The position numbers were made by a program, and so were the translations under genes. Shown here piece by piece: positions 1,099 to 35,999 of a DNA stretch of 64,000 bases (position 1 is its first letter; the number at the start of each line of letters is the position of its first letter). A model generated the notes under the pieces. That model did no database searches. It saw only the letters and a program-made list of their open reading frames with translations, and was not told the origin of the DNA. The DNA is from Gordionus sp. m RMFG-2023 (lineage: Eukaryota > Nematomorpha > Gordioida > Chordodea > Parachordodidae): assembly GCF_954871325.1 (NCBI RefSeq), contig NC_088775.1, positions 44,927,561 to 44,991,560 of the forward strand, written 5' to 3'.

Positions 1099-1400
1099 AA
1101 GCGGTTTGACTAAACTGCGAATTCTTAGGTAAAATTTTTTATATATTATATTTTTTTGTAGTGAGATCCATTTTCCTATGATATAAATAACTTATAAAAA
1201 ATTAAATTTTTAGATATATTCAATAATAAAGAAATATACATTAATAGTTAAATTATCTTTTATCTCATAATAAATCGTTTAAATCTTTTAATATAATTAT
1301 ATTAAAGATATTAATAATTCAATTTTAAATTCCAATAATATTAAATCCGCAAGTTGGCGTGTATTATTATAAAATACTATTATAAAAAAATATAATCATT
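1099..1400 (+). repeat. Left terminal inverted repeat of the MULE
   Basis: This matches the reverse complement of 17780-18479 in two blocks: about 1099-1297 (including GTAGTGAGATCCATTTTCC) and about 1310-1400 (including AAATCCGCAAG and GGCGTGT). About 430 bp present in the right arm is absent here. Confidence 0.75.
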
Positions 1401-3360
1401 TAAAAATGTTTTATATCAGAATTTACTCCTAAAACATTAAAGACTCATTTTAATAAGCTGAATTATCATAATACGCATGGTGGAGGGCTATGTATAATAT
1501 TTAAAACAAAATCATGCTAATAAAGTATATTGTTAATATCACTATATAAAATATTATTTTGTGTCAAATGATATTCAATAATATCAAGTTACTATTAAAA
1601 TAAAATAATTTAAATATTATTTATCTTGATTTATCTAAATATTATAGTAAATGATTAATTTATATTTATATAATTAGAATCATATTTATATAAATATTTC
1701 ACATGATGCCATTCATTCATTTACCTTTTTTTACCTCAATAACAATAGATTTTTTTCTAGTCGTCATATATCTTAATATATTCAATCAGAAATGGATAAT
1801 CACGTAAGAAAATATTTATATTACATGGGTAGGTCCTTAAGAATCTAGATACAGATGTGAAAAAATTAATCTTAGATACAGATACTAGTATTTTTTTCAA
1901 AATATCAAAATAAAATTAGAATAGTTTATAAAATATAGTTTTTACTAATTAATAAAATATTTAATGATGAGTTAATATATCAGGCATTTTAATATCAGTA
2001 ATAGCCCATTCTTATAGATAGGGAAGGGAGACGAGTTGAAATATTAATTAGTAAAAGAGTATTTAAAATAGATTTATTATTTTATAAGATAATTTAGTAT
2101 TAGACCTTTGCCATTTTGGCATACATAGCATTGTACCAAAACCAAATAACCTTTCAATTGAAGTTGATGAAGATATTACAGTATTATATTTATAAAAAAA
2201 TGTTATTTGTATTATTGAACTCAGCAACACTTGTTTCACCAAAAAAAATATTTTCTTTATTAGATATTAAATCTATTGATGTTATAGTTTTGATTATATA
2301 CTATGATACTACATTTAGGGCTTCTTTTATTAATATATTTTGAAAGTATTCTTTAATTCATATCTTAAAAAAAGCCTCATTATATTCAAATTATTGGAAA
2401 ATATTTTCTTAAATTTTGTCTATACCATCTTAAGCATGAATTTTTAAGAAAACCTATGCTCCTTATAGCCACATATTAATATATTTTAAATATGTTTAAC
2501 AAAATTTTTGTTTAACCCTTTATCATTTTTATGTTACAGATTTTATATCCAGCCTTTTTAACTTTTATTTAAAAAAAATTTCCATTTAAAATTTTAAGAT
2601 TAGGATTTGATTCATGGGAACTTATTTCCATAACTTAAATTTCACAACCTTCTTCTTCACTACCATCCTGCAAATTAAAATATATTACATAAAATTGGTA
2701 ATGATATTCTGTCGAGTTACATTTATACAGGGATCCAAACCGAAAAGAATATCGGTTCGGTTAAGGTTCGGATAAATATAAAGGTTCAGGTTCAATTAAA
2801 AATAACGCTTCAGGTTCAGTTTTGATCCCTGCATTTATATATAAAATGTAATCTTTACTAATTTCGTTTGGGTTATTTTATATACATTTACCTTAATATA
2901 AGTTGTAAATTTTTCAGTTAATTTTGGTCGTCGATATATTTAAAATATGGCGGAAAAGAATAAGGAAATTAATACAATATTCTTGAAGAAAATAAGATAT
3001 ATGCTGTGATATGTAAAATTTTAAATATGAATATTAAAAAGTATCTGTATCTTTTGCCAAGAAAATAAAAATGAAAAAGATGCAAGATTTTTTTCAGAAT
3101 AAAGAATCTTAGATATCAGATACTAGTATCTTATTAAAAATGTCAAAAGGTACTACAAGATACAAAAGGATTTTGTATTTTGTATTTTAGATACAAATAT
3201 TTGTGGTACTGCACAACTCTGATTACAATTGATATGATGATCAATGATTGAGCAGTATAAAACAAATAATTATAAAGTGTTAACAGTCTAATTTTGTTGA
3301 CCTTTATCTTTAAATGAACAGAAAGAATAAATTTATTTAATTTTAATTATTAATCTAAAA
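1401..3360. other. MULE interior without recognisable genes
   Basis: AT-rich, with no supportable coding sequence. It contains one hAT-type MITE (2728-2831) and scattered copies of a TAGATACAGATACTAGTATC-like motif (about 1835-1895 and 3035-3200) that probably mark degenerate MITEs. Confidence 0.5.
2728..2831. mobile_element. Small hAT-type MITE
   Basis: 104 bp with ends CAGGGATCCAAACCGAA and, reversed, CAGGGATCAAAACTGAA. Perfect 8-bp duplications CATTTATA lie at 2720-2727 and 2832-2839. It has no coding capacity. Confidence 0.85.
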
Positions 3361-3379
3361 TAAAATAAAACAATATTAC

Positions 3380-4050
3380 AGAATGCTGACTGTACTAGTG
3401 GTTATGAATGGATGGAAGCATTACCAAGTCGTAACCTAGGTAACCTCTTATAAGATGAACAATTAAGAGTTGCCATAGGCCATCGACTTGGATGTAACAT
3501 TGTTCAACCACATACATGCATCAAATGTAAAATATTAGTTGACTCCAAAGGGAGACATGGTCTAAATTGTATATATAATCAAGGCATGCAAGACATGCAG
3601 CAATTAATTTAGCTATTAGCCGTTCTCTTGCCAGGGCCCGAATACCAAACATCCTGGAGCCTACAAATTTATCGTTAGATGATGGCTTAAGAACAGATGG
3701 CTTAACTTCCGTGCCTTGGTCTTTAGGGAAATCCTTAATTTGGGACTTTACATGCATATCTTCTTTCCCAAAAAATTTAAATTCTAATCCGGTTGATATT
3801 TCCGAGAAAAAAAAACAATGAAATATTCCAAATTCACAAGTTATATTTTTACACCTATTGTTATCTCTTCCGTTGGACATATGCCAAGCGGAACTTTAAA
3901 TTTTTTAAAAAATATAGGGGATAAGACAAGAGCCCTTACATCAGAACCTAAAGAATTTTATTTTTTAAAACAAAACCTTCAAATCACAATTTTAAAATAT
4001 AATTACGCATGTTTTTCGGGAACTTGTAGTCCCACCTCCGTTTTTATATA
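3380..4050 (+). pseudogene. C-terminal fragment of a YLDD-type reverse transcriptase protein
   Basis: Pieced across frames, the plus strand reads WMEALPSRNLGNLL, then LRVAIGHRLGCNIVQPHTC, then KCKILVDSKGRHGLNC, then NILEPTNLSLDDGLRTDG, then PWSLGKSLIWDFTC, and finally FYFLKQNLQITILKYNYACF. This is the region downstream of RT in a widespread invertebrate RT family: a CxC..HGLSC zinc-like motif, then an R-P-D-G / W-D-T-C segment. The same family with its YLDD catalytic core is at 57350-60000. Frameshifts and in-frame stops show it is decayed. It probably inserted into the MULE. Confidence 0.65.
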
Positions 4051-4147
4051 ATATTGTTTTATTTTATATTTTATGTGAGAAAATTTTGAGATAAATTTGA
4101 TAAATTGAAAAAAAAAAAAAATTTATTAATCTTATTTCAAAAACGCA

Positions 4148-5110
4148 ATGATGGAGAAAATAGATGTGAAGCCATGCTCTTCATTGCTTAGATTACAGAA
4201 TAATTTTTCAGTTAATTCAGCAGTAAATGGATTGAGCCTTATCAGTTTACATTACAATTTATCAACTAAATGTAATGATAATTTTTTAGTTGGGGAGGAA
4301 GACCTTATTTCTCAAAGGTTGTTAAAATCATTTCAGGGGCATCTTTTAGAAGATTATTCGCCTAGAAAAGTTATTGGGGATGACAATTGTTTTTATCGTT
4401 GCTTGTCTCTAGCAATTTTTGGTCATGAGGAGGAACATCTCTACATGAGACTCTTGACAGCAATTGAAATAATAATTAATAGAAAGTATTATGATATAGA
4501 TGATAAATTTTACAGTAGTAATAAAACAATAAGTGATGAAAGAATTTCCACTACTGATTACAATCATGTTTTAAATGATGCATTGATGGTAGGAGGCTGG
4601 GCACAAATGATGCATCTTTATGCATCAAGTGCAGCTTTGGGAAAAGCATTTCAATCTTATTGTCCACCTTCTAATCGTGGGATGTATAGCGCCTATACCA
4701 CACCAGTATATGGGCGTTCAATTAACTTAGTTTTTATGTGGTCGAGTTTATTACCCCGATAAATTGGCGAATTTTAAACCAAATCATTTCTGTTACCTAC
4801 AATCATTACTATCGAGTCCTCCACCAATTATTAGTCATTTGTCACCTAGAATTGATGTAGCACCATTTATATTTCCATTAGTTGAAAATAATTCCCAACA
4901 TATTTTTCCACCTCCAATCGAATATCCGCCTATTATTAGCTATTTACCAACTATTTTATCTGATGATGATTTACTATTCTATTCTCCAATTTCTGTTGAC
5001 AATGATTCTCCACCTATCTCACCTTCAATCAAATCCCTGTCTAGTATGAGTCATTTATCACATATTTCATCATCAGCAGACAATAATCCTCCACATATTT
5101 TCAACCTCTA
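4148..5110 (+). pseudogene. OTU-family cysteine protease domain plus Ser/Pro-rich linker of the MULE protein
   Basis: The ATG at 4148 opens about 70 residues of unassigned N-terminus, followed by GDDNCFYRCLSLAIFG, which contains the OTU catalytic Asp/Cys motif (GDxNCxxR). The domain runs through MRLLTAIEIIINRKYY and the segment ending INLVFMWSSLLP. A frameshift near 4755 ends the first frame, and the OTU histidine motif follows in the next frame as FKPNHFCYL. A repetitive linker rich in Ser, Pro, Asn and Ile follows (4830-5330). OTU proteases remove ubiquitin, and OTU domains are known in some MULE elements, but the function here is inferred only. Confidence 0.7.
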
Positions 5111-5149
5111 ATCAATTCCCCATCTAGTATCGCTTGTTTATCACCCGTT

Positions 5150-5960
5150 TTGATGCCAGCTATCCTTAATGATTCACCATTCATATTTCCATCTTCAGTT
5201 AACAATAATTCTCCAACTATTACTAATTTATCATCAATTGTTAGTAGCAGCTTACCTTTTCTAGACCCCGATAATATTATGAATATGTTATTGAATCCCA
5301 TAAATATTCTAGAATCAATACCAACCGGTATCAAAAACAATGTTATATTTACAATAAGTAATAAAGAAAATATGATTTTGAAAGAAAGGGGTAAAAAATT
5401 AGTGCATAGCGATGATTGTGGCGCGTGGACTGGTACATCCACAGGTACAGCAAAATATTATTATAGTATAAATATCAATGATAATACAATTAGCAGTGGT
5501 TCTATGGTTATTAAGGATGGCTTATTTGGCAAGTCCACCACAAAACGATATAATCATATATTTATTGCAAAACCACAACCAAATCCTCAGGACTTGGTAA
5601 TTTTAAATCTTTATTATACAAAACTGAAAAATTGTGAAACGTATAAAAGAAGAATATGCCATTTAGATAAATATTTAAACAGCTCAGTTCATCTTATTCA
5701 ATCTATATTTATAGTTGAATACATAGGAACATATCCAGGGTTGTTTCCACATGGAAACAACAGATACTAGCAGGAGTTTATAGTCATACCCCAGTATGTA
5801 TAATGCGACAAATTAAGGAAAAGGTAGTGCATTAGCCTCAAAAGACGTGTACCAAGATTTAATAGCTAATGAAGAATATTTTACTTCCAGAGATATCAAA
5901 CAAATTCGTAATATACAATTTAACGAATTGCATAAAAATGATTTGAAAAATTTTTCTGAC
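5150..5960 (+). pseudogene. N-terminal region of the MULE transposase
   Basis: After the linker the reading contains DDCGAWTGTSTGTAKYYY, then KRYNHIFIAKPQPNPQDLV, then LYYTKLKNCETYKRR, then VEYIGTYPGLFPHGN. This pattern is familiar from OTU-containing MULE-like proteins of cnidarians and molluscs. It ends at 5770 but coding-like sequence resumes in another frame (GSALASKDVYQDLIANEEY and NEFQY) to about 5960. Several frameshifts show decay. Confidence 0.6.
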
Positions 5961-6049
5961 CAGATAAATGAATTCCAATATTAAAAAAAATAGATATAAG
6001 CCCAGACAGAGTATGTTCGCTAATATTATAAACTAGTTTAATGTTAGAT

Positions 6050-6985
6050 AATATTATATATATTTGTTCTCAAGATTTTCCTTATTAGGTCCCTTGTTTG
6101 TGACGACAACAGTTTTCAAGAATCAAGTGCTCATGTCTAAATAACAGGATCATCCTATATTCTTTGGTCCTATATTTTTGCATGGCAGCTCTGATTATGA
6201 AACTTTTAACATTTTCTTTTCGCACTTGGAAGGCTTCTTCAAAAAAAATAAAATAAATGTTGAAAATCTTATATTCGGCAGCGATGAGGAGCTAGGTTTG
6301 ATAACTTCGTTAAGAAAGAATTTTAGTAATTCTACACATATATTATGCACCTATCATATGAAAAAGAATCTAAACTTATTTTTACAGGATAAAGAGGGAA
6401 TGGATTCAAGGACAAGGGAAGATATTGTAACTAAAATTTTTGGCAAAGAAGGACTTGTATTTTCATTAAGCGATAAAATCTTTGGAGAAAAGGTTGAAAA
6501 ACTGCGAGATTATTGTAGAGATAAACAGTTTATTAAATTATTGAAACATATAGATGCCAGTTTAAAAAATAATTTATTTTTATATGTATATTTACCTTTA
6601 AAAAATAAGGTGATATCGTATCTTTATACTAACAATAACTGCGAATCTTTAAATAATGTGTTAAAAATAAAGTTTAACCGAGATTCTACAACACCTGTGC
6701 ATATGATGGTCAATAAAATTTATGAATTAAGTTTAGCACAAGAAAAAGATTTTGAAAGAGCCCTTCTTGGTATGGGAAATTATTATTTAACAAAATGATG
6801 TGACAAAAATTCGTCATGAATGGGACCAGATAAGTGACGATCAACGTAAAAAAATAATATTAAATGTGTACAAATAAACAAAAAAAAATACCTCGACATG
6901 TGGTGGATTGACATTAATTCAACCTACAGGATCTAAAAAACCGTGTAAATCTAAAAGATCTAGATCAGATAGAACTAGAGCCTAG
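6050..6985 (+). pseudogene. DDE (MULE) transposase catalytic region
   Basis: The reading begins with FVTTTVFKNQVLMSK, then HPIFFGPIFLHGSSDYETF, then NLIFGSDEELGLI, which supplies the second catalytic Asp. ILCTYHMKKNL follows, the C-x2-H motif of MULE transposases. NNNCESLNNVLK holds the likely catalytic Glu, and VTKIRHEWDQISDDQRKK lies in a shifted frame after 6798. The protein would end at the TAG at 6983-6985. The first catalytic Asp region (about 6010-6080) is scrambled. This enzyme would cut and paste the 1099-18479 element, but this copy cannot be functional. Confidence 0.75.
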
Positions 6986-7051
6986 TTATTATAGTTCCTA
7001 CATAAAAATTAACCAGTAGGCACTAATTTATTTCAGAATTAATTTATCCAA

Positions 7052-7170
7052 AGCCCTTTTTAGGGCCATAACACCCAAAGGCCCTTTTTAGAGCCATAAA
7101 ACCCAAAGGCCCTTTTTAGGGCCACTCAACGAAAAGTTCGCTACAAAATCCAAAGACCCTTTTCATGGAC
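7052..7170 (+). promoter_or_regulatory. Tandem histone-type 3'-end stem-loops (four copies, one perfect)
   Basis: About 70 bp after the transposase stop there are four spaced hairpins. 7108-7123 is GGCCCTTTTTAGGGCC, which fits the histone stem-loop consensus GGYYYUUHUHARRRCC perfectly. 7080-7095 ends in GAGCC and also fits. 7053-7067 has lost one outer base. 7155-7170 (GACCCTTTTCATGGAC) is degenerate. The flanks CCCAAA upstream and ACTCAAC downstream are also histone-like. GAAAAG lies 8 bases after the third hairpin and resembles a U7-binding element. The orientation matches the transposase gene, so they probably form its mRNA 3' end. Confidence 0.7.
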
Positions 7171-7303
7171 ATTTAAACAATCAAATTATATTACTTTAAC
7201 GATTAACTTAACAAAACAAAATTTGTAGAAAAAGAAATACATGGACGCTTAACCCACCAACAATTCTCATTAGATATTAGCCGACGTTAAAACCCCAAGT
7301 TAT

Positions 7304-7453
7304 TTTTGAGATTATACTTAAAAATCTTTTATTTTTAAAACTAAAACCTAACAATCTATCAATAAAAAAAAATATATTAATACATTAAAAAAAATCAATA
7401 ATATTTTCTTTTAAATTAATAACAATAATAATAATATACATATACCTAGAACA
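7304..7453 (-). repeat. Gypsy-1 3' LTR
   Basis: On the minus strand it starts TGTTCTAGGTATATG and ends AATCTCAAAA. It is very short for an LTR and lacks the usual terminal CA. It aligns with 17083-17234 with two or three substitutions and a 2-base gap. Confidence 0.85.
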
Positions 7454-7467
7454 CCTCCCTTATTTTT
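7454..7467 (-). promoter_or_regulatory. Polypurine tract of gypsy-1
   Basis: On the minus strand AAAAATAAGGGAGG lies directly before the TG of the 3' LTR, the expected site for plus-strand DNA priming. Confidence 0.75.
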
Positions 7468-7517
7468 AAGAGGCGTTCTCAGGTTACTAAATATATATAT
7501 AAAAAAAATATTACATT

Positions 7518-8037
7518 TTATAATATATATTGCTCCTCTTTATTCATTACTTCATTTATACCCATCTCTGCTAATTCTTGTTGCACTTCTTCAGCTACGT
7601 TCATTTTGACGGGTCTTTTCCTTTGCAATGCTGGTTTTTTCATAAGTGTCTTACGCACTCCAAAATTCTTCTGATTCATGAGTACTTGCTTAGGCAGGAT
7701 TACATTAGAACGATCCAGAATTGTGCTAGCACGAGCAAAATTCGAATCATTGACTTTATTTTGGTTATTATCATTATTATTGATAACATAAGTATTGCTG
7801 GGACAGTTAGCTGCTTTGTGTCCTTCTGTTCCACAGGCAAAACAAGTTAAACGGAATATAGGTCTGTTGAACAATTGCTGAACACTCATCCTTGATCTAT
7901 GAAAGGATGGTTGCACATTTATCGTTGGTTGGTTTGGTGGCTGACCATTTCTCACAAGTTCCTCCTTCCTATTTGCCAGTTCAGTCCATGCACAGGCTAA
8001 AGCAGTTCCTGCTTGCGCTTTTTGATCTGCAGGATAC
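7518..8037 (-). CDS. Gypsy-1 3' ORF with one CCHC zinc knuckle
   Basis: This is an open frame of about 172 residues if read from the stop at 8038; the first ATG is at 7955. Before that ATG it reads ADQKAQAGTALACAWTELAN. The knuckle is CFACGTEGHKAANC (C-x2-C-x4-H-x4-C), roughly in the middle. The rest is basic and Asn/Gln-rich and ends EEQYIL. It sits between integrase and the 3' LTR, where some gypsy elements have env. The main Gag knuckles are elsewhere (15719-16432), so this is an additional knuckle protein or a displaced gag fragment. No membrane or signal sequence is visible. Confidence 0.55.
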
Positions 8038-10689: not shown

Positions 10690-11560
10690 CCCCAAATTCT
10701 CTATCACCGCGCCTTTTTCCCATTTTTCCATTTTCCATACATTCTAACCCAAACCAATTGATTCACTATATATTTCACCTGATTTTCCTTCTCCTGTATC
10801 TCCACAATTTCCCCAGGTTTCAACATATCCAAAACATATTTATTTTTCGACCTAACAATATTTCCGCAGGCGATTTACCATCTTTGCCTTTAGCATTATT
10901 ATAATACAACTGCAATACCCATATTTCACTTCGGTTATCTTTAGTTTTCATTAACCAACTTTTAACAATCTCCACCATCCTTTCCGCCTGTCCATTCGAA
11001 CTAGGATGGTACGGTGGTGTAACTATATGATTCACATTTAATTTGATACAAAATTTTTTATCCTATACTAATAAATGCTGGACCTCCATCCGATACCATA
11101 ACTTTCGGTATCCCAAATCTCGAAAATATTTTTTTACAAAATTTTTTTACAATTCCCGTGGATAACCCATGTACCTCCAAGAATTCTATCCACTTCGAAA
11201 AAGAATCCACCATTAAAACAAATTTTTTCCCTTCCCACTCGAAAAAGTCCAAATGAATTCTTTCCCAAGGTTCTTTAGTTTTCAGCCAACTACTATTTTT
11301 ATCTTTAGGGGGCATATTGGCACAGGCATTACAAACCTCACAATTTTTCCCTAATTTATCAATTTCTTCATTTATACCCGGCCACCATATGTATTCCCGT
11401 CCCCATTGTTTTATTTTCGTAATTCCTTGATGACCCGCATGTAAAATATCTAAAATTTTTCCTCTTAAATTACGAGGAATGATCGCTCTATTTCCTCTCA
11501 TAATACATTTATCTACTATAGTTAATTCCGCTTCCACATTTTTAAATTTCCTTCCCTGAT
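10690..11560 (-). pseudogene. Gypsy-1 integrase
   Basis: The minus-strand reading has the zinc-binding HHCC module (HAGHQGITKIK, then CEVCNAC), then the catalytic core IHLDFFEW (first Asp), VMVSDGGPAF (second Asp) and SSNGQAERMVEIVKSW (Glu). A frameshift at about 11050 separates the second and third catalytic motifs. The C-terminal QLVWVRMYGKWKNGKKAR lies in another frame near 10700. The enzyme would insert the cDNA and generate the 5-bp duplication. The frameshift disables this copy. Confidence 0.8.
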
Positions 11561-11564
11561 CACT

Positions 11565-12703
11565 TCATGGTTTTTTCCCAGTAATCCACAATTTTACCAA
11601 ATTCAATTCTTTATCCTTCATAGTATATCTCTGAATATCCTCCCATTTGGTAGGACTACCCTTTAACACTTTAGTTAACATCCTGATAAGAGCTTCCTCT
11701 CCATTTTCTTCATCAATTTTCACCTCTTGTTTCTCATCAATGATTTCTAATCTAGACATAATGTCCGGCAAATGATTCTCTTTTCCCTGCCTATACTTCA
11801 ACTCCAAATCAAAACTTACCACCAGCAGTAACCACCTTTGCAACCGAGGCAACATTATTAACTCCTTATTATCTTTTTTGAAAAGATGTATTAAGGGTTT
11901 ATGATCTGTATACACTACAAATTTCTTCCCTATCAAATATTCTCTGCATTTTGTCAATCCAAAAATAACTGCCAAAGCTTCTTGTTCTATCACCGAATAT
12001 CTGGTTTCCACCTCTCTGAATACCCTCGAAAAAAATATTACCGGTCTTTCTACACCTTCTATCACATGCAATAAAGCTCCTCCAACACCTTTATTCGAGG
12101 CATCTACCGCCAAAATAACCTCCAATTCGCTGTTAAAACATACTAAAATAGGCTCCTTGCTAATTTGTAATTTTAACCACTCAAACGCCAATTCTTGTTC
12201 ATCTTTCCACTCAAAAGATACATTTTTCCGTAATAACTCATATAAGGGAGCTGCCACCTTTGCAAAATCTTCAATAAATCTATGGTAATAATTTACCATT
12301 CCCATAAACGATTGAATTTCAGCCTTATTCACCGGCTTTCTCATATTCGCAATACTTATCAAATTTTTATCCAACGGTTTTACCTCTATTCCATTTATCT
12401 TATGTCCCAAATATACAACTTCGGTAACTCCCATAACACTTTTTTCACTACTCGCACGCAATCCTTTAACTTTTATTCGTTCAAAAACCTCTTCCAACCT
12501 TCTATTATGTTGTTCTACCGTTATTCCTGTAATCAATACATCATCCATATAATAAAAAAAACCTTCTAACCCTTGAAAAACCGCAGCCATTGTCCTCTGA
12601 AAAATTGGTGCTGAAACACTTAATCCAAATGGCAATCTACAAAACGTAAACAATCCTTTAAACGTCGTTATGGTTAACAATTTTCTCGTAGATTCTTTCA
12701 TAG
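11565..12703 (-). CDS. Gypsy-1 RT C-terminal half and RNase H
   Basis: On the minus strand the RT reads FCRLPFGLSVSAPIFQRTM and then FYYMDDVLITG, an intact YMDD catalytic box. The thumb follows with VNYYHRFIEDFAKVAAPLYE. RNase H has ILAVDASNKGVGGALL (Asp), YSVIEQEALAVIFGL (Glu) and VVYTDHKPLIHLF (Asp), ending near ENHLPDIMSRLE. The N-terminal RT half is at 14167-14894 and the two halves are separated only by the hAT insertion. Taking out the hAT and one duplication leaves the frame open. The 378-residue frame has no internal stop. Confidence 0.88.
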
Positions 12704-12711
12704 GTAACTGC
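12704..12711. other. hAT target-site duplication, left copy
   Basis: GTAACTGC here is repeated exactly at 14159-14166 and is part of the gypsy-1 RT codons for Gln-Leu. Confidence 0.9.
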
Positions 12712-14158
12712 CAGTGGCGTATCCAGGATTTTCTTATAGGGGGGGAAATATATTTCTATTTTTAACTATTATTTACTAATTCGTGCTTATGGATAGATCA
12801 TTACAAGCCTCTTTTTTATTATTTCAAGTTAGGTATATTATATTTAATAAAGTTTTTTTAAATGTAAAGGTTTATTTATATGTAAAGTTGAAATAAAGTG
12901 TAATGTCATTTTTTTTATAAAATTTGCTTTAAAAACTAGCCTCAGCTTAAATTCTCATACAATATAAGTAGAATATAATTTTTTTTATTGAAAATACTAA
13001 TAGTAGTTTAAAATATTGACTAGAAAATAATTAAATTAACAAGTTTTTTTTAACTTCTTATCAAATACAAGATTTTTAATTATTTCGTTTGTCTTTGGAA
13101 CCAAATCTCTGTGTATAATTAACAGAGCTAACCCATTTAGCCGAGATTCAGTACTTCGTAAATATGTTTTCAACCTTCTCAAGTTGGAAAAAGTCCTTTC
13201 ATTCGTACATGTTGTAATAGGCAAACATGCAAGAATATAAAACAACTTCGAAATATTAGGAAATTGAGCCAAGGTTTCTTTACACCGATTGAGCGCATCA
13301 ATAGCATGCTCAGGTAAAATAGCTAAACGTATAAATATTTATACCACAATTCGAATTCACTGATTAAATTTATTTCAGTATCAATCTCATAGGAATAAAA
13401 TTTTTCTAAATATTTAATTTTACCAATAGTGGCATTAGAAAATGAAGAAGGATCTTTGGGTAATAAAACTTGAAGATTGCTAAAGACTTGTTTTTTATCT
13501 AAAACCCGTACTTTTATTTGCTATAAAAAAGTATCTAAGAATGGGATGAAAATGGATATTTTAGAATATTCGTTGAGCCAATATTTATTTTCATCTCAAA
13601 AATGGCCTAGGTGCTAGACGAGGTTTAATTAGTATTATATCATAAAATTTAGCCTTCGATTCAACGTCTAGATAAATATTATGAAAATATTTATCTACAT
13701 TCATTCTTATTGTATCTACCTGTTCATGTATATTTTCCGCCAAATCAATAACTTGAACCAAATCTAAATTTGGTTTTTGTAAATTTCTACAAAGTAGTGA
13801 GCTAAAAATAATTTATTGATGCAACTAGCAGCAATGATAAACTCTGATTGATCAATTGAATTCAATAATGATATCGCTGCTAACGACACATTACTTTTTT
13901 TCATGCTCAGCCTTATTTATAAATTATCGTTTGATTTCAATCTCTTTGACTAAATATTTTTACATTTTATTAATATTTTTGAATAATATGTTGAAAAATT
14001 AATATTCAAATATTTGTAAAATTTTGATTTGTGTGGGTAGGGGGGGTCTGGGGGGTGGGGGTAAAATTTTTATTAGCTTAAAATGATATTTATGAAAATA
14101 GTCAAATTTGCGATGGGGGGGGAAATTTCCCCCTTTCCCCCCATTGGTTACGCGCCTG
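12712..14158. mobile_element. hAT transposon inserted in the gypsy-1 RT
   Basis: 1447 bp with ends CAGTGGCGTATCCAG and, reversed, CAGGCGCGTAACCAA (11 of 15 matching), flanked by the perfect 8-bp duplication GTAACTGC. G and C runs lie close to both ends (GGGGGGG near 12738 and 14040-14140). Only the C-terminal transposase region survives inside, so it is internally deleted and non-autonomous. Confidence 0.92.
13036..13272 (-). pseudogene. hAT transposase C-terminal dimerisation region (ZMYM1-like type)
   Basis: Minus-strand reading: YILACLPITTCTNERTFSNL, then LKTYLRSTESRLNGLALLII and HRD. This is the conserved hATC block, where P-x-x-x-x-x-x-E-R-x-F-S-x-L mediates transposase dimerisation. 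About 78 residues remain of a protein that usually exceeds 500. A further decayed stretch of the same gene may lie at 13280-13930, but it carries many stops. Confidence 0.8.
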
Positions 14159-14894
14159 GTAACTGCAAATACGCACATGAAAAATCTATTTTTGAAAAAT
14201 ACTTCGCCCCCTTTAAATTCGCTAAAATTTCTTCAATTCTCGGCAACGGATACTTTACTTCCACAACCCATGGATTTAAAGTTACTCTAAAATCCGCACA
14301 AATCCTTAACTTACCATTAGCTTTCCTTACCGGAACTAATGGAGTTGCCCATTCACTATATCCAATGGGACAAATTATTCTATCTCTTAACCAATTATCC
14401 AATCCTTTTTCCATTTCTGCTCTCCATTCAAACGGTACCCTCCTAACAGCACAATATTGTGGAATAAACCCTTCTTTCAAACGTATATCTACTTCATAAT
14501 CTACTAAACGTCCCAATCTTTCATCAAAAATTTCTTTATATTTTTCCTTCAAATTAACCATTGCCTTCCTTAACACCACTAAATCTTCTTTACTTTCATT
14601 TTCTATTTTTTTTCTAACCAACTTCACCGGAAAATTTTGTGCTACAGACAATTTTTCTCTCTCTAAATTCGAATCTTTGCAAATTCCATCACCACTCATA
14701 TAACTATCCTCCAATCCCGATTCCCTTGAAATCAACTTTTTGTCTACCTCACTAAAATTTTCATCACTTGCTTCCAAAATATTATCCATCTCTACATCCA
14801 CAAAAATATCATCAATATCCAAATTAACATTTTCCCCAGAATCATATATTATAGCTTGTTCATTATTCACACGATCAGGCTCCTCCTGATCCAT
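14148..14894 (-). CDS. Gypsy-1 RT N-terminal half with acidic leader
   Basis: From the ATG at 14894 there are about 100 acidic residues, followed by RT. The visible motifs are FDERLGRLVDYEVDIRLKEG, YSEWATPLVPVRKANGKLRI and CADFRVTLNPW. KIDFSCAYLQLP follows and contains the first catalytic Asp. The last two codons shown belong to the inserted hAT. The RT continues at 12703. The upstream frame (14909-15091) is also acidic and open, and likely continues the protease-RT linker across a frameshift. Confidence 0.85.
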   Translation of the reverse strand: MDQEEPDRVNNEQAIIYDSGENVNLDIDDIFVDVEMDNILEASDENFSEVDKKLISRESGLEDSYMSGDGICKDSNLEREKLSVAQNFPVKLVRKKIENESKEDLVVLRKAMVNLKEKYKEIFDERLGRLVDYEVDIRLKEGFIPQYCAVRRVPFEWRAEMEKGLDNWLRDRIICPIGYSEWATPLVPVRKANGKLRICADFRVTLNPWVVEVKYPLPRIEEILANLKGAKYFSKIDFSCAYLQLPGA

Positions 14895-14908
14895 TTTTCC
14901 ATTTATAA

Positions 14909-15700
14909 TTATTTCATTTCTGAGAATTTCCTCAAAATCCTTTCTCGAATTTTTAGTTTCCTCGATTTTAATATTCCAATTTCCGAAATTCCATTTATTT
15001 CATTATCACAAACTTTCTGATTATCATTTTCCATATTTTCCACTTTAATATTCTCCAAAATTTCAATTTCCACCAATTCATTTTCCACCAATTCGTTTTC
15101 CTGATTTTTAATATCTACCTCCTTTACGGATGTTTCTAACGTTTCAATATTTTTATCATCCTTTTCCCTTGAAATATATTCAAAAATTTATTTTCTAATT
15201 TAAATTTAGATATCCAATTCCATCCCAAAATCGCATAACCTCTTCTTTTATTATCCACAAATCCAAAAATTGTACTACCCCTTTAACTAACACTGGTAAA
15301 TTCACTTTCCCCAAAACCGAAATTACAGTTAGATTTAACTGTTTAATTATCATTTATTAATTGCTCATTCGGCCATAAATTTGAAAATTCCTTATACCCC
15401 ATTACCGATATAGTTGCCCCGTATCTACATTAGAATTTCCTTGTTTCCAACATTAATTTTCACCCTCGGACATTCATCATAATTAATATCTTTTTTCACC
15501 AAATCTGGTATAATACAAATTTGTATATTTGCCCTGGGCCACTCATTCTCCTTATTTTTAACCACTAATTTATTACTATTTTTCCTTTCTTCAATTTCCA
15601 AATTATTTTCAATATTTAATATATTTCCTAATAATAAAGTTTTTCCCTTGTCTAATGGGTTTTCCGATGTAATAACCCCACATATTGATTCATGTCCACC
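14909..15700 (-). pseudogene. Gypsy-1 protease region, degraded
   Basis: Short open pieces remain. In the minus strand near 15210-15260, YAILGWNWISKF corresponds to IMGWDWIVQL of gypsy-2, which follows the aspartic protease active site. The DTG motif is not clearly readable and several stops are present. It lies between gag and RT as expected. Confidence 0.55.
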
Positions 15701-15718
15701 ATATAGTCATGTGACGGG

Positions 15719-16432
15719 TCAATCTCTCGCATAATGCCCAATGTTACGACATTTGAAATATGTTACATCTTCGACATTCCTTTTTTCATAGATATTTTTT
15801 CCCCCTTTTTTTATATATTCTACCGCCGGAAATGCTTTAGAATTTTCTTGTTGATTCTTAAAACACTTATCATGACCATGACCAAAATTTCCACAATTTC
15901 CACAAGCCTTTTGATTTTCATTCACCAATTTGTATGCCGGAACATAACACTCATCCGTTTTATGCCCTTTATTCCCACACCTTTTACAAATTATGGTTAA
16001 CACACTTGGATTTCTCATCTCATTACACCCCCTACTGATATGTCCAAACTTCCCACAATTATAACACTTTTTATTTTCCCTTTCATCATTCCCATACACT
16101 CCTTTTCCTTCATTTTTCTTTTCCAATTCTTCTATTTTAATTTTCATTTCTGTCATTTCTGTTCTCAACATCTCTTTTTCCTTTTTAATCAACTCCAATT
16201 TTTCCATTTTCTTCCTTTCTTCCATTTCTTTTATCTCTATTTCCTTCCTTTCACTTTCCCATTCCTCCCTCATTTCCCTTCCCATTTCTTCAATATTAAT
16301 CTCCTTTTTTTTATGTTCCATTTTTTTAATTTCCTTTTCCTCTTTTTTTTCATTTTCTTCAATTTTTCCATTTTCTCTTTTTTTCAGACTCTCTAACGAA
16401 ATCTGTTTTATTAATATCAATTTCACATACAT
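15719..16432 (-). CDS. Gypsy-1 Gag, coiled-coil and nucleocapsid part
   Basis: About 237 residues. Residues 1-110 are almost all Lys, Glu and Met and predict a long coiled coil. Three perfect CCHC knuckles follow: CYNCGKFGHISRGC, CKRCGNKGHKTDEC and CGNCGNFGHGHDKC. The fourth (FKCRNIGHYARD) has lost its first Cys, and a TGA replaces the last one at the end of the frame. These knuckles bind genomic RNA during particle assembly. A +1 or -1 shift separates this from the N-terminal part at 16497-16733. The T-rich plus-strand frame at 16040-16396 is only its shadow. Confidence 0.8.
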   Translation of the reverse strand: MYVKLILIKQISLESLKKRENGKIEENEKKEEKEIKKMEHKKKEINIEEMGREMREEWESERKEIEIKEMEERKKMEKLELIKKEKEMLRTEMTEMKIKIEELEKKNEGKGVYGNDERENKKCYNCGKFGHISRGCNEMRNPSVLTIICKRCGNKGHKTDECYVPAYKLVNENQKACGNCGNFGHGHDKCFKNQQENSKAFPAVEYIKKGGKNIYEKRNVEDVTYFKCRNIGHYARD

Positions 16433-16496
16433 TTTTTTCAGAATCTCTGACGATATCTGTTTCTAATAATTTTCATTTTTCACCATATATATTTCA

Positions 16497-16733
16497 TTAA
16501 ATAAATTCAATATTCCTCTTAAATTTTTCAATTTTTTTATTTTTCTCCCTTTCCACTTGCTCTAACACTCCTCTTACTCGATTTATATCTTTATTCCCAT
16601 TTCTTTTCTTATACCAAAAATATATTATAACCCATAATATAAAAACCACTAATATTCCAAAATACATTCTTAACGGCTCAACATTTTTGACCTCAAAATA
16701 ATTGTTGGTCTTAATATTTTTGCGATTTAGCAT
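16497..16733 (-). CDS. Gypsy-1 Gag N-terminus with membrane segment
   Basis: 78 residues from the ATG at 16733. Residues about 21-42 (RMYFGILVVFILWVIIYFWY) form a clear hydrophobic helix followed by KKRNGNK and a charged, probably helical tail that would run into the coiled coil at 16432. The position mirrors the membrane segment at the start of gypsy-2 Gag, so it is probably real and not chance. Gypsy Gag proteins normally lack a membrane span. Confidence 0.6.
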   Translation of the reverse strand: MLNRKNIKTNNYFEVKNVEPLRMYFGILVVFILWVIIYFWYKKRNGNKDINRVRGVLEQVEREKNKKIEKFKRNIEFI

Positions 16734-17035
16734 TTCCTTAAAATTATTTTTACTTTAAATTCTTAATTTTCAAATCTAAATTCTTTAACTCTATAAAAAA
16801 CTTATCAATAATTTTATCAAAAAAATTTTCACTGTCTTAAATGATAAAATATACAATACCGAAATTATTCTGAAAATTATTAATACACAATAATACATAA
16901 AATTTCAAAAAAAATATCAAATTTTACCTTTTTTTTAACGAATTTCCTTTTTCCTTTTATAATTTTCTGGCCTGTTTCGTAACGGTAGTCATTGGTCTTC
17001 CGAATTAATTTTTTTTTTAAATACAGGTATCTTTT

Positions 17036-17050
17036 AAATTGGAGGCACCA
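17036..17050 (-). promoter_or_regulatory. Likely primer-binding site of gypsy-1
   Basis: The minus strand reads TGGTGCCTCCAATTT from 17050. TGG would pair with the CCA end of a tRNA. It follows the partial LTR copy with a one-base spacer. I did not assign the tRNA. Confidence 0.55.
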
Positions 17051-17051
17051 C

Positions 17052-17081
17052 TTTTGAGATTATACTTAAAAATCTAGAACA
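17052..17081 (-). repeat. Internally deleted extra LTR copy
   Basis: The minus strand reads TGTTCTAG joined directly to ATTTTTAAGTATAATCTC and AAAA: the first 8 and last about 22 bases of the LTR with about 120 bp missing. It sits between the 5' LTR and the primer site, with a single G on each side. Confidence 0.8.
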
Positions 17082-17082
17082 C

Positions 17083-17234
17083 TTTTGAGATTATACTTAA
17101 AAATCTTTTATTTTTCAAAAACTAAAACCTAACAATCTATCAATAAAAAAAAATATATTAATACATTAAAAAAAATCAATATTATTTTCTTTTTAATTAA
17201 TAACAATAATAATAATATACATATACCTAGAACA
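17083..17234 (-). repeat. Gypsy-1 5' LTR
   Basis: 152 bp, starting TGTTCTAGGTATATG at 17234 and ending CTCAAAA at 17083. It is nearly identical to 7304-7453. Confidence 0.85.
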
Positions 17235-17239
17235 GTTAT

Positions 17240-17780
17240 CATCTCAGAATAGCAAATCAAAGTCTTTCGAAATCAACTGAAAATTCGAACAATACACTAA
17301 TCCCCCCCCCCCTCTCCATTCTTTATTTAAAACCAATATATCATTTTACAAATAAAATATAACGACATTTATAAAATTACCGGAATCCCTTATCGAAAAT
17401 ATATATTTCCCCTAAAAATGATAAATCTTTATACATTACATACATTTTTATGCTAGGTGTAAAATAATCTTTTATAAACATTATATTTTCGATAAAATTT
17501 TTCTGTGATATCTTATTTATTAGAATGATATTATTGTATGGTAATATTGTAATAATGGCAATAAAAACAAAGTGGCTATTTATAAAAAAGATCAATATCA
17601 AGTATGCAAAAATTATTTTAAAAAATTAATTTATCTTACTTTAACCATTAAAATGTGATCATATGTAATTTATAAAAACCTATATTTGTTCTTCCAATTT
17701 TTCGAATGATAGATAATATATGGAATTTAGCTTACTTTTTAAGTAATAATACAATATTAGAATATAACAAAACAAAAAAT
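17240..17780. other. MULE 3' non-coding segment after gypsy-1
   Basis: AT-rich with a C12 run near 17303-17316. No gene supported. Confidence 0.4.
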
Positions 17781-18479
17781 AATTTTAAATTTTTTATAAA
17801 ATAATAACACGCCATCTTGCGGATTTAATAATATTGAAATTTGAAATTAATTATTAGTGTTAGATTTTGAAGTTGATTATTATAAAAAAAAGGAAGATTA
17901 AATATTAAAATATATAACATCAAACCTTTTTTGTATTTAGAAGTACGGGTAACAATAATTTAAAATGATTTTTTTTTTTCTTTTAATATTCAAATAACAT
18001 TTTTTCAAAAAAAAATTTGAATAACGAAAGAAATTAATAATTTTTACATATACTAACAATTCCCAACTAAAATTATTATATAATAAATAATAATAACTAA
18101 TTATAATATTCAAAATATAAAAAAAAAGGAATTCATTATTTAAAAAAATGAATAAACACTACAATAATAACTAATTATAATATTCAAAAAAGTAATTACA
18201 TAACCATATAAAAAAATTAATAAAAAAAAGGAATTAATTATTTAAAAAAATGAATAAATACAACAATTAATATTTTTATATAATTATATTAAAAGATTTA
18301 AACGATTTATTATGAGATAAAAGATAATTCAACTATTAATGTATATTTCTTTATTATTGAATACATCTAAAAATTTAATTTTTTATAAGTTATTTATATC
18401 ATAGGAAAATGGATCTCACTACAAATAAAAGATAATATATAAAAATTTTTACCTTAGCATTCGCAATTTAGTCAAACCC
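17780..18479 (-). repeat. Right terminal inverted repeat of the MULE
   Basis: The reverse complement matches the left end (1099-1400) in two blocks. It includes an extra central segment of about 430 bp with an internal duplication (18080-18260). It ends at the AAATAAAA duplication beside the gypsy-2 LTR remainder. Confidence 0.75.
18080..18260. repeat. Two-copy tandem duplication inside the MULE right arm
   Basis: Two units of about 90-105 bp share AATAACTAATTATAATATTC and ATTATTTAAAAAAATGAATA. Confidence 0.7.
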
Positions 18480-18487
18480 AAATAAAA

Positions 18488-18662
18488 GTGTATAAAAAAA
18501 AACCTTACGTTTCTTTGCGATTTTTGTAATTTGAATAAGTTATTTCTATATTTAGATCTTTGCCAGTTTGGATTGTCTGCTCAATTTTGATAGTTCTTTT
18601 TATTTAGTTTTCTAGTTTGTCATTTCTATTTCTGTTTTTTTTAAATTTCGTCGTTTTTGACA
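18488..18662 (+). repeat. Gypsy-2 5' LTR, right portion
   Basis: It begins GTGTATAAAAAAAAACC and ends GTCGTTTTTGACA, matching the end of the 3' LTR (24993-25166). TTGCGATTTTTGTAATTTG and GGATTGTCTGCTCAATTTTG are shared. Confidence 0.88.
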
Positions 18663-18926
18663 GTTGTTGACCGTGACTACAGGATAGTCTTGATACCAAG
18701 GTTATTCGTTATTTTAAGGTAAAAACAATATTTTTATTTTATATTTTGTATCTCTCCTCAGGACAAAACGCAATCACATTTTTGTTTAAATTTTTTTAGA
18801 AATTTAATTAATTTTAAAAAAAGAAAGTTTAAAAAAATAAAGAAAAAAGAACGTATTTTCAAATATTCTAAAATTACTTATTTACCACGGCCGATTTAAA
18901 GTAATATAAATTTTCCATATCATGAG

Positions 18927-19722
18927 ATGGGCTTTATGTTTAATTTTGATATTGAACCTAGCTTATTTAATAAAATTTCGGAGTATCCGAGTATTACTTA
19001 TCAAAATTTGTATCAAATGGTTGATAAATTTGATGTAAATAATGCATTAGTGACAATTTTATTATTGATCATAATATGTAGGTTATCTATTATAATAAAA
19101 TTTTTGTTTGGAAAATGTACTCTGGTTGCGACCAAAGTATATGGTAATTGGAAAAGAGACACTCCGGTGTCGGCTGATTGTTGGAAAAAAATTTCGGTCT
19201 TGGAAAGTAATTTAAATGTGGTTTCAAATGAAATCAAGAACGGCAGACCAGAAATGGTAGAAACTTGAATGTAATAACGATGATCGTTTGGATATTATGG
19301 AGAAATCTGTAGTTATCCTCCGAGAATTGAAAGAAATAAAAGAAGTGATTAAGATTATATATAAGATTATATATCAAGATATAAATAAATTGGTTATTGC
19401 GAATGGTCCGACATGGTCAAATGGAAAAAATATCTCCGTTAAAAAAAATGGTTTTTCTGGTCAAAAGAAAATCTTAGAAGATTTGAAATGTACCCGCTGT
19501 AGGTATAGGGGCCACAATGTAGAGACCTGTGTGGTCAAAGAACATAATTTTCGTGAGGGTTTTCCGTTAAAGAAATTGACATTAGAAAATTCTAATGTTA
19601 GAAAAATTTCTGGCACCAACACGAATAAATGTGAGGTTCTACGATCGAATTATGGTAAATCCCGTTTGTTTTTTAAATGTAACAAACCGGGACATGTAGC
19701 CATAAATTGTATAGAAAATTGA
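18927..19722 (+). pseudogene. Gypsy-2 Gag with N-terminal membrane segment and zinc knuckles
   Basis: The first frame (18927-19268) has a strongly hydrophobic stretch at residues 39-61 (ALVTILLLIIICRLSIIIKF). A frameshift near 19260 leads into the second frame (to 19722). That frame starts with a helical segment (VVILRELKEIKEVIKIIY) and has one good knuckle, CTRCRYRGHNVETC. A second knuckle (FFKCNKPGHVAINC) has Phe in place of the first Cys. It is shorter than gypsy-1 Gag, with two knuckles instead of four. The 5' leader is 18663-18926; I see no typical TGG primer site right after the LTR. Confidence 0.75.
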
Positions 19723-19803
19723 CTATATGATTGCAAGTGTAATCATATAGTAAGTAAGAGATCGGAAGGTAGAAATAGTAATAAAGTAAATAACCACGCT
19801 GAA

Positions 19804-20688
19804 ATGAGATATGATTCTCGTAAAAGCCGTGGTTTTAACAGAAATTTTTTTTATCCTGATGATAAAAATAATGAAGATTCTAATAATTTTAAATGGGAGA
19901 AATATCCTAAGGGTATTGTTAAATATTCCGATAAAAGGGATGTTTATACTTTCAGATGGGAAAAATTTCCCAGTTATATTGCAAAAAAATATATGACTAT
20001 TGTTAATGAACGACTAAATTCCGAGTTGAATTTATGTTCAAATGGGAATTCTCATGAAACTGATATTTCAAATGAGATTAATATTGATCAATCAATTAAA
20101 ATATATGAGATTTTAATGACTGAGAGATTAGTCGAACCTTGTCCTTGTCCGAGAGTTACTGTAAGAGTTGACTCGAGGGACATCGACATGTTGTTCGACA
20201 CAGGGGCTAGCATTTCCATAATGTCTAGAAGAAATTATTATAAATATTGGCCTGGGGGTGAACTTGAAAAATCTATGTGTGTCAGACAATTTGATGGGTC
20301 TGAAATTGTAGTTTTGGGAAAAACTAAGTTGGGATTAATTCTCCATGATACCACATTTTTCCTAGATTTATGGGTAGTAAAGAAAGATGTGGAAACCATC
20401 ATGGGGTGGGATTGGATTGTTCAGTTAGGTCCTTTCAATGATTATTGGAATATTTTTGCCATACATAATGGTTCGGCCCTAAATGAGACTAAAAACAAAA
20501 GTATTGCTAATAGTGCTCGAGAAAAAATTTATGAAATAGAAGGGACAGAATTAACCGTAGAAGAAGAGAATTCAACCCTTAATTCTGATAGATATGTAAA
20601 TTCCACGGAATTAATGTTTAAGACCATATTAGCGTTGCTATTGGTATTCATGAATTACATAAAATGCGTGAAAATATATCTCTTTTAA
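19804..20688 (+). CDS. Gypsy-2 aspartic protease and protease-RT linker
   Basis: 294 residues from the ATG at 19804. An N-terminal region contains a repeated FKWEKYPKGIVKY / FRWEKFPSYIAKK motif. Then comes a retropepsin fold: VTVRVDSRDIDMLFDTGASI with the catalytic DTG, ending IMGWDWIVQLGPF. The tail to 20688 is acidic and corresponds to the linker before RT. The protease would mature Gag and Pol. A frameshift follows at about 20640-20690. Confidence 0.82.
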   Translation: MRYDSRKSRGFNRNFFYPDDKNNEDSNNFKWEKYPKGIVKYSDKRDVYTFRWEKFPSYIAKKYMTIVNERLNSELNLCSNGNSHETDISNEINIDQSIKIYEILMTERLVEPCPCPRVTVRVDSRDIDMLFDTGASISIMSRRNYYKYWPGGELEKSMCVRQFDGSEIVVLGKTKLGLILHDTTFFLDLWVVKKDVETIMGWDWIVQLGPFNDYWNIFAIHNGSALNETKNKSIANSAREKIYEIEGTELTVEEENSTLNSDRYVNSTELMFKTILALLLVFMNYIKCVKIYLF

Positions 20689-20689
20689 T

Positions 20690-21235
20690 GAAGAAATATG
20701 AAATAATTTTCGAAGACAAGTTAGGATGTCTTAATGATTATCAAGGGGATGTAAAATTAAGGGAAGGACTTTCACCTATTTTTCTAGCGTGTCGACTAGT
20801 TCCTTTTGAATGGAAAAAGGAAATCGACGAATAGTTGGATCAATGGGTTAAAGATGGCATTATTGTTTCAGTGGAATATAGTGTATGGGCAACCCCTTGG
20901 TACCGGTTAAGAAAGCAAATGGTAAATTGAGGCTCTGTGCTGATTTCAGAGTAACCTTAAATCGATGGGTAGCAGAGATTAAATATCCGTTGCCTCGAAT
21001 TGAGGAAATTTTGGCTCAGTTAAAGGGAGCAAATATTTTTCAAAGGTTGATTTTTCGTCAGCCTATCTACAATTACCTTTGAGGGAGGAAATTCGTAAAT
21101 TATTGACGATAACGACTCCTAAAGGGTTGTTCGCTTTTTGTAGATTACCATTTGGGTTGAGTGTGTCGGCCCCCATTTTTCAGCGTACCATGGCATCCGT
21201 TTTCCAAGGACTAGAGGGAGTATTTTATTATATGG
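20690..21235 (+). pseudogene. Gypsy-2 RT, disrupted, catalytic box deleted
   Basis: Frames must be switched to read it: KKYEIIFEDKLGCLNDYQGD, then a stop at 20832, then YSVWATP, LVPVKKANGKLRLCADFRVT and YPLPRIEEILAQLKGA. A frameshift near 21045 leads to LTITTPKGLFAFCRLPFGLS and FYYMDA-stop. Compared with gypsy-1, about 25-30 bp encoding DVLITGI after YYMD is missing, so the catalytic YMDD box is destroyed. Confidence 0.82.
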
Positions 21236-22099
21236 ATGCCTGAACAGCATAACCAACGTTTGGAGGAAGTTTTTAAGAGAATTCATGGTAAAGGCTTGAG
21301 AGCCAGTAAGGAGAAAAGCATTTTGGGAGTAACGGAGGTAGAATATTTAGGCCATCAAATAAATGGGATTGAGGTGAAGCCATTACAAAAAAATTTGAAG
21401 AATATATTAAATTTGAAGCAGCTCAATAGTAAGGCTGAGGTGCAGTCCTTTTTGGGTATGGTAAATTACTACCATCGTTTTATCGAGGATTTTGCGAAGG
21501 TAGCTGCTCCGTTATATGAGTTATTTAAAAAGGGTGTTCATTTCGATTGGAAAGTGGAACAACAAGAAGCGTTTGAAATTTTAAAGGGAAAGATTGGGGA
21601 AGAGCCAATTATAGTATGTTTCAACAATGATTTAGAAATCATATTAGCTGTTGATGCATCTAACAAAGGTGTTGGAGGAGCCTTATTAGATTTAATTGAT
21701 GGTGTGGAAAGACCCATCCTTTTTTTCTCACGAGTTTTTCGGGATGTAGAAACGAGATATTCTGTGATTGAACAGGAGACCTTGGCCGTGATTTTCGGTT
21801 TGACAAAATGCCGTGAATATTTGATTGGTAAAAAATTTGTAATTTTTACCGATCACAAACCGTTAATCCACTTATTCCGAAAGGATAATAGGGAGTTAAT
21901 GTTATCTCCCCGGTTGCAGCTTTGGTTATTATTAGTGGGCAGTTTTAACGTGGAGGTTAAATATCGTCGAGGCAAAGAGAATCATTTGCCTGATATTTTG
22001 TCTAGGTTAGGTTCTGGCTGTGCAGATCCGGAAATAAGTGATAGGATAAGTATTGATAGAGAGAAGGCCTTAGTGCGTACTCTGTCGTATATTTTATAA
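21236..22099 (+). CDS. Gypsy-2 RT thumb and RNase H
   Basis: 287 open residues. It starts right after the YMDD deletion with EQHNQRLEEVFKRI, then VNYYHRFIEDFAKVAAPLYE. RNase H shows ILAVDASNKGVGGALL, YSVIEQETLAVIFGL and VIFTDHKPLIHLF (the Asp, Glu, Asp triad) and ends KENHLPDILSRLG. It is close to gypsy-1 across the whole length, so the two elements are related families with different LTRs. Confidence 0.85.
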   Translation: MPEQHNQRLEEVFKRIHGKGLRASKEKSILGVTEVEYLGHQINGIEVKPLQKNLKNILNLKQLNSKAEVQSFLGMVNYYHRFIEDFAKVAAPLYELFKKGVHFDWKVEQQEAFEILKGKIGEEPIIVCFNNDLEIILAVDASNKGVGGALLDLIDGVERPILFFSRVFRDVETRYSVIEQETLAVIFGLTKCREYLIGKKFVIFTDHKPLIHLFRKDNRELMLSPRLQLWLLLVGSFNVEVKYRRGKENHLPDILSRLGSGCADPEISDRISIDREKALVRTLSYIL

Positions 22100-22199
22100 A
22101 GGGGGTCCTACCAATTGGGAGGATTTGAAAACAAATACTGTGAACGACAAAGATCTAAGTCAAGTAAAATTGAGTTTAACAGGAGAAAAACCTTGGAAA

Positions 22200-23138
22200 A
22201 ACAAATATGATTCCTATAAAAGAATTGTCTATTGTTGATGGTTGTATTATGAGGGGAATCAGGGCCGTAATTCCTTATAAATTACGGAGTAAAATTATGA
22301 ATTTATTGCATGCCGGACATCAAGGTCAAGACAAGATGTAATCTTGGGTTCGGGAATATGTATGGTGGCCTGGTATGGGCAATGATATTGAACGGATTAC
22401 CAGGAAATGCGTTCCTTGTAATACTTGTGCCCTTATGCCCCGTAAAGAAGTAGGGCAAGTTTGGCCTAGATCAAAGAAACCTTGGGAAAGTATTCAGATT
22501 TCTTTGACCTTGATAAAAATCATATTTTTTAGTAGTAGATTCCTTTTCCAAGTGGATAGAATGCAGAAGTGCATGGTTATACTACTAAAGTAGTTATCAA
22601 AAAATTAAGGGAATTATATGCCCGATTCGGTTTTCCCGACACGGTAGTGTCTGATGGGGGTCCCGCCTTAGTCAGTGAAGAGTTCAAACATTTTTGTGCC
22701 GAGTCACAGACCCGGCATATTCTTATGCCGCCAAATCATCCCAGCTCGAATGGACAAGCTGAGAGGATGGTAGCAATTGTTAAAAATTGGATTAGAAAGG
22801 CTGGTAATCATAAGGATGTGGCTTACATGTCTCATTTATATTACCTTAATTCTCGCAATCGAGAGGGGGTTACGCCTGTAGAGTTATTTTTAGGTAAACG
22901 AACACGGGGTCCTTTAGATTTCTTAAAACCAAAAGAAAAAATTATTACTTCAGTGGGAGTAAAATTAAGGGTAAAGTTTTCAGTGGGCCAGAAGATTTGG
23001 ACCAGATTGTTTGACAATCGGGGAAGGAAGTGGGAGAGAGGTCGGGTAGTAGTCAACCGAGGTTCTAAATTAAGTGAAATTTTGTTAATAACCAGGGTTA
23101 CAGTGATCAATCATCACGATCACATGAAATTGGGGTAA
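22200..23138 (+). pseudogene. Gypsy-2 integrase
   Basis: The HHCC module is HAGHQGQDK (followed by a stop codon) and CVPCNTC. The core contains VDSFSKWIE in a shifted frame near 22545, VVSDGGPALVSEEF (second Asp) and SSNGQAERMVAIVKNW (Glu). The C-terminus has VGQKIWTRLFDNRGRKWERG, the usual small beta-barrel region, and ends at 23138. At least one stop and two frameshifts break it between 22340 and 22590. Residues after 22569 form one 189-codon open frame. Confidence 0.82.
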
Positions 23139-31047: not shown

Positions 31048-31247
31048 AATCTTATTTATACATTTGCATAAAATCAAATAAATTTATTTTTTACATTGTA
31101 AAATTAATATTTTGAATATTTTGGCAAATCATAAAAATAAAGAAGCATTACAATCTCCTCAAACATGACATCATATTAAATCTTATTAATAATTATCCGA
31201 TAATTGTAATAATATTCTTACTTTGGTATTTCTGCAGCATAATTTAG

Positions 31248-33977: not shown

Positions 33978-34019
33978 TTTTGATTAGTAGCCAATATTAT
34001 GTAAGCCAGATTTTGCGTT

Positions 34020-34360: not shown

Positions 34361-34363
34361 ACA

Positions 34364-35900: not shown

Positions 35901-35999
35901 TCTTAAAAATAAAAGTAAACTATAATATAAAAAATTAAAAATGATATACAAAAATAAGATTATTAATATTTACCTTTAAATAGGAATTCTCAATTTACA

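Follow-up and report, generated by a model that had tools for sequence, protein, structure and literature searches.

Histone stem-loops and OTU-bearing MULEs

PMC12775136 sets metazoan histone mRNAs apart as a unique class, with a stem-loop at the end in place of a poly(A) tail. The hairpins reported here resemble this stem-loop (RF00032, the SLBP/U7 pathway): the stem has 6 bp, the loop is U-rich and 4 nt long, CCAA precedes the stem and a mostly ACC-like flank follows it, and they lie on the sense strand shortly past a stop codon. Unlike it, they sit on transposons, and in two element families (F1 and F2) they stand in tandem. By form, flanks, strand and place, they are histone-type signals.

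The F1 element itself is close to two kinds of MULE in PMC6446971. Like the OTU-bearing MuDR-6_HM (group 14), it joins a MULE transposase to what appears to be an ovarian-tumour-type domain, a likeness of domain content and not of placement in a tree with that group's sequences. Like the aphid Phantom MULEs (Table 1 there), it carries repeats past the transposase stop and ahead of the right end, with the difference that the repeat unit of F1 is a histone stem-loop; a scan of F1 frames found no FLYWCH domain for comparison with Phantom. Neither "histone" nor "stem-loop" occurs in the main text of PMC6446971 (0 times each), and a search on histone stem-loops and transposons, in literature lying mostly outside the subscription journals, showed no such case among the papers listed.

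A broken OTU-MULE gene and the hairpins behind it

The stretch of DNA analysed (the window) is 64 kb long, has 28% GC and holds many mobile elements. The features that concern us are the following.

1102..7304, + strand: remaining part of an F1 OTU-MULE, right end missing (homology to locus L031, in four blocks within 1111-7304)
1102..1395, + strand: left terminal inverted repeat (the reverse complement of L031 7270-7544 matches 1111-1395 at 91%)
4148..6985, + strand: broken gene for an OTU-like protease and MULE transposase, family F1 (homology, domains, read-through)
7048..7067, + strand: hairpin unit 1, stem-loop 7052-7067, first stem G lost in the window copy
7074..7095, + strand: hairpin unit 2, stem-loop 7080-7095, CCCAAA flank, one mismatched pair; Rfam Histone3 16.5 bits, E 0.21
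7102..7130, + strand: hairpin unit 3, stem-loop 7108-7123, perfect (GGCCCT TTTT AGGGCC), flanks CCCAAA and ACTCAAC
7149..7170, + strand: hairpin unit 4, stem-loop 7155-7170, decayed (4/6 pairs), the fixed outer unit of F1

The initial annotation had called a MULE transposon gene at 4148..7170. The gene is interrupted by several frameshifts and stops and, with the frame traced across these breaks, ends in a TAG at 6983-6985. The call is upheld by a match to PF00872 (Transposase_mut) above its cut-off (21.5 bits against 21) and by homology to P0001, a protein of Gordionus sp. m RMFG-2023 to which the read-through protein is 80% identical over the part searched, and which is matched at 100% over 828 aa in locus L031 on contig C1. 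The window gene scores just under the PF10551 (MULE) cut-off (26.1 against 27.6 bits), and in L031 both domains fall below their cut-offs (PF10551 25.1 bits, PF00872 17.5 bits); the PF10551 cut-off is exceeded by the relatives P0004 and P0007, not by P0002. For the OTU-like part, the motifs GDDNCF and PNHF were spotted by eye, L031 matches Peptidase C65 Otubain (E 8.5e-5, 22.6 bits against a cut-off of 24.3), and P0007 holds an OTU domain (PF02338) above the cut-off. The transposase piece alone, used as a query, found no relatives because pieces fail to retrieve full-length proteins; the full read-through protein found P0001. A search for relatives in viral contigs returned none.

The ends of the element emerged from the comparison with L031. 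Terminal inverted repeats could not be found from the window alone, because the right repeat is gone: the terminal motif GGTTTGACTAAACTGCG lies at window 1103 and its inverted partner is absent from the window. In L031 the two repeats (1965-2274 and 7270-7590, 310 and 321 bp) are 87% identical, and GAATTTACC flanks the element on both sides as a 9-bp duplication if one base of slack is allowed; target-site duplications of MULEs measure 8-11 bp, mostly 9. L040, which is 98.4% identical to L031 over 5647 columns, has no clean duplication, so that one was seen in 1 of the 2 copies examined. The protein frame of L031 has a single interruption, between 3415-3879 and 3880-6378.

Elsewhere in the window, a FLYWCH-MULE gene at 34866-35969 on the minus strand lies between two arms, each about 3 kb long and inverted relative to the other (29989-32976 and 37413-40224, the longer blocks 95-99% complementary); 29989-40224 is likely one MULE whose inverted repeats are very long. 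Frames resembling pieces of Gypsy-like retroelements by eye lie on both strands within 11058-23138.

Behind the stop of the OTU-MULE gene, the initial annotation had placed four hairpins on the coding strand, one of them a perfect histone stem-loop between CCCAAA and ACTCAAC, and both points proved right (7052-7170 and 7108-7123). The array begins 62 nt past the stop and consists of four units of about 28 bp, spaced by about 28 nt, with 47 nt before the fourth. On the two strands of the whole window, GGYYYTTHTHARRRCC is matched only at 7080 and 7108. A covariance model had been proposed as a check: unit 3 (7103-7149) does match Rfam Histone3 (RF00032; 31.1 bits, E 7e-7 for 801 bp), at a score below the curated gathering value of 34, and no Rfam family reaches its gathering score anywhere in the window. 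The RNA of 7040-7175 folds with a z of -3.61 (0/200 shuffles equally stable), and the best fold contains hairpins 1-3 and not the fourth. The GAAAAG at 7131-7136, earlier noted downstream of the hairpins, did not withstand comparison: it is private to the window copy, 12/12 other aligned rows that hold this stretch having CCAAAAG, and for this reason it carries no weight.

Hairpins in other copies and other element families

We searched the Gordionus genome (G000; 287,057,807 bases) for further copies. In the F1 loci L031-L043, which were chosen for their hairpins, a transposase lies upstream in the same sense in 13/13. A set not chosen for hairpins comprised at least 67 matches to P0001 (from the best 55 of 689 candidates scored), of which the 40 reaching residue 781 or more were tallied; the 27 left out are 26 that stop short of this residue and one further fragment of the window copy. 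Within the next 1.2 kb, a sense hairpin is present in 9/12 copies of F1 (at least 71% identity, window included), in 6/6 of F2 (49-55% identity to P0001) and in 0/22 of the other OTU-MULEs (46% identity or less), several of which are near-identical to one another. These counts rest on exact patterns and Rfam hits (best 75 of 76,786 candidates scored), with 100 of the 197 broad-pattern places (C1, C2 and part of C3) and all places of three narrower patterns, and diverged hairpins may escape them. The three F1 misses (L053, L054 and L038) have decayed units at the expected place, in sense; a scan for near-hairpins in two of the 22 other copies, L057 and L058, found none, and L055, which is outside the tally because it matches only as far as residue 761, has no units.

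The hairpin array therefore belongs to the F1 element. Full-length copies lacking hairpins would have spoken against the initial annotation, and there were none, as units, at the least decayed ones, are present in 12/12 F1 copies that extend to the end of the transposase. The check it proposed, whether other copies keep the array between the stop and the right inverted repeat, comes out positive in, for example, L031, where the array again starts 62 nt past the stop and is followed by about 680 bp before the right repeat. The tree built with F1, F2 and P0002 gave no decision on whether the first two group together to the exclusion of the third.

In F2, the stems are GGTCTT/AAGACC and GGCCCT/AGGGCC, and the hairpins lie 323-419 bp past the protein match. 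In four of these elements (on C5, C100, C7 and at C1:9.22 Mb) a second hairpin faces outward on the other side, 5.3-6.3 kb away, which likely marks the other element end. These mirrored hairpins are a counterpoint to a 3'-end role, as a pure 3'-end signal would not need them. One might speculate that the hairpins are a DNA-level part of the transposon, a subterminal palindrome or minisatellite bound by transposase, since those of F2 lie near both likely ends, facing outward and beside a repeat of about 145 bp, and since a minisatellite after the transposase ORF is listed for the aphid Phantom elements (Table 1 of PMC6446971). We hold this to be highly improbable: the F1 array is internal, well short of the right inverted repeat, downstream hairpins are in sense in 15/40 copies and in antisense in 0/40, and hairpin, loop and flanks are common to an RT element and to histone genes. 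At the F2 loci L005, L009, L022 and L024, the repeat of about 145 bp stands in tandem after the hairpins and is also found inverted nearby.

The RT element, F3, is a retroelement with a gag-like gene 1 and an RT gene (RT E 4e-21), which may be of a DIRS-like kind; a match to a viral polymerase C-terminal domain is under its cut-off, and no frame of at least 90 aa was seen downstream of the RT frame in L052. We tallied 56 of 138 gene-1 matches, namely 55 reaching residue 245 and one ending at 237; a further three, with ends at 237-244, were not counted, and no hairpin is listed near them. Where gene 1 has at least 62% identity, a hairpin lies 69-126 bp past the gene end in 16/18 copies (one of the 18, C2:9928547, being a short piece assigned by hand) and in antisense in 0; below 62% the count is 3/26, and among fragments 0/12, again with none in antisense. 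At L018, a histone hairpin lies between the gag-like and RT genes (1432-1545), possibly as a switch between short and long mRNAs: a hairpin in this position would shift the balance from full-length mRNAs towards short ones covering gene 1. For F3 alone, the hairpin stretch could instead be a 3' splice site for the RT gene (a pyrimidine run with TTTTCAG/G), as a pyrimidine-rich run precedes the hairpin, an AG lies within it, and the RT frame is open across the stretch in L018 and some other copies. Splicing seems quite an unlikely explanation, however, as it needs neither a palindrome, nor the paired change from GGCCCT/AGGGCC to AGCCCT/AGGGCT, nor the AATACCCAA flank that is common to the histones.

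Host histone genes and the mRNA 3' end

The host genome gave 21 histone-domain matches, of which we examined 20, one being the second piece of another. A sense hairpin lies within 400 bp in 13/20 (5 H2A and 1 H2B by tblastn, 7 untyped); the 7/20 that have none include open frames of 121 and 147 residues (C2:36315250 and C1:88350491). The best F1 copy, at 33.5 bits against Rfam Histone3, falls inside the span of 33.1 to 37.1 bits set by five genes for host H2A, one of which is under 34. The best among the genome's scored matches is L001 (C2:8280669; 38.9 bits), a locus that matches neither histones nor MULEs and has no frame of at least 70 aa in the 3 kb examined. A decayed host histone gene was considered as the source of the array and rejected: by eye, there is no histone among the window's 40 frames of at least 100 aa, and tblastn on the first 30 loci gave histone matches only in L002, L003, L004, L007, L008 and L021, and none in the other 24.

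The initial annotation had suggested that the element borrowed SLBP/U7 processing. The SLBP half of this is supported, as the hairpins match the form of the host histone hairpins and the host has an SLBP domain (PF15247 at C3:16021032; E 1.5e-11, 52.3 bits against a cut-off of 27, positions 27-70 of 70). The U7 half is not: the U7 snRNA candidate is a weak match (26.7 bits against a cut-off of 34, E 0.126), although it holds CTCTTT and AATTTGCCTA in the order of U7, and a host-like downstream element was not found in F1 (p 0.70), in F3 (p 0.33 and 0.46) or in the flank of L001. Here F1 and F3 differ from the RF00032 system. In F2, the sequence 3' of the hairpins is similar to the equally distant flank of host H2A (p 0.02-0.03), which is suggestive of a U7-type downstream element in that family.

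The missing element in F1 and F3 also bears on a reading that overlaps with ours, in which the hairpins recruit SLBP to promote translation or stability, or evade silencing, and cleavage and polyadenylation of the mRNA still take place downstream. L031 has an AATAAA at 6833, about 240 nt beyond the array, and polyadenylation there may therefore occur. Against it stands, indirectly, the established role of animal histone hairpins as mRNA 3' ends, and we consider this reading less likely than not.

Comparison among families indicates that the stems are maintained as stems. For 25 of 50 distinct units, hand-picked from histones, F1, F2, F3 and L001 and originally found with patterns and the Rfam model (a bias towards good ones), CCAA and the four Ts are invariant, the stem has 6 bp, and the sequence after it is variable, with CCT in F2 and AT in part of the F1 units. 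Among these units 97.3% of cells are paired and 4/6 stem pairs have changes on both sides, values that 0/500 shuffles reach in either case; slid controls give 65% or less. One of the five measures, the number of further pair types, shows no excess (4 against 4.8 in shuffles). Genome-wide, one hairpin pattern has 197 exact matches and its reverse 0. Two longer arrays of histone-like units, 9 at C1:565379-565709 (minus strand) and 13 at C2:21595410-21595870 (plus strand), have a spacing of about 26 or 52 bp, mostly an A-C first pair and a perfect last unit.

Within F1 there is no extra conservation, hairpins differing pairwise by 3.3-4.1% and flanks by 2.3-4.2%. This fits freely decaying copies, so that constraint is visible between families only. 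It could also mean that the hairpins are functionless passengers, a histone 3' end caught by an ancestral element whose tandem units arose by slippage, and the number of F1 units ahead of the fixed outer one does vary (about 2 to 4), some units being decayed. Against this, three element families carry hairpins in the same sense past a stop, the stems change in pairs, and the F2 copy L059, open over the 521 residues examined, retains three units that between them have two kinds of stem, the third unit lying 382 nt past the stop. We rate the passenger origin as improbable.

Hairpins of the same sense in F1, F2 and F3, their match to host histones, the host SLBP domain and the paired changes therefore make SLBP-type 3'-end signals the most likely explanation. 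On these sequence grounds, the F1 array probably works as the histone-type mRNA 3' end of an OTU-MULE transposon: host SLBP would recognise the hairpins of the transposase mRNA and guide how the 3' end of this mRNA is formed, with cleavage and no poly(A) tail, and transposase expression would then follow the histone (S-phase) programme. The broader proposition, that two OTU-MULE families and a gag-RT element end or switch their mRNAs at SLBP hairpins, in a replication-coupled manner and with no poly(A), has in our view an even chance of being right.

If mobile elements do use the histone signal, their transcripts would make up a second, non-histone class of such mRNAs. A known switch would then couple transposition to S phase, and the elements could escape control that acts through poly(A). 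The arrays and variants present in nature would allow the requirements of SLBP to be tested within one animal.
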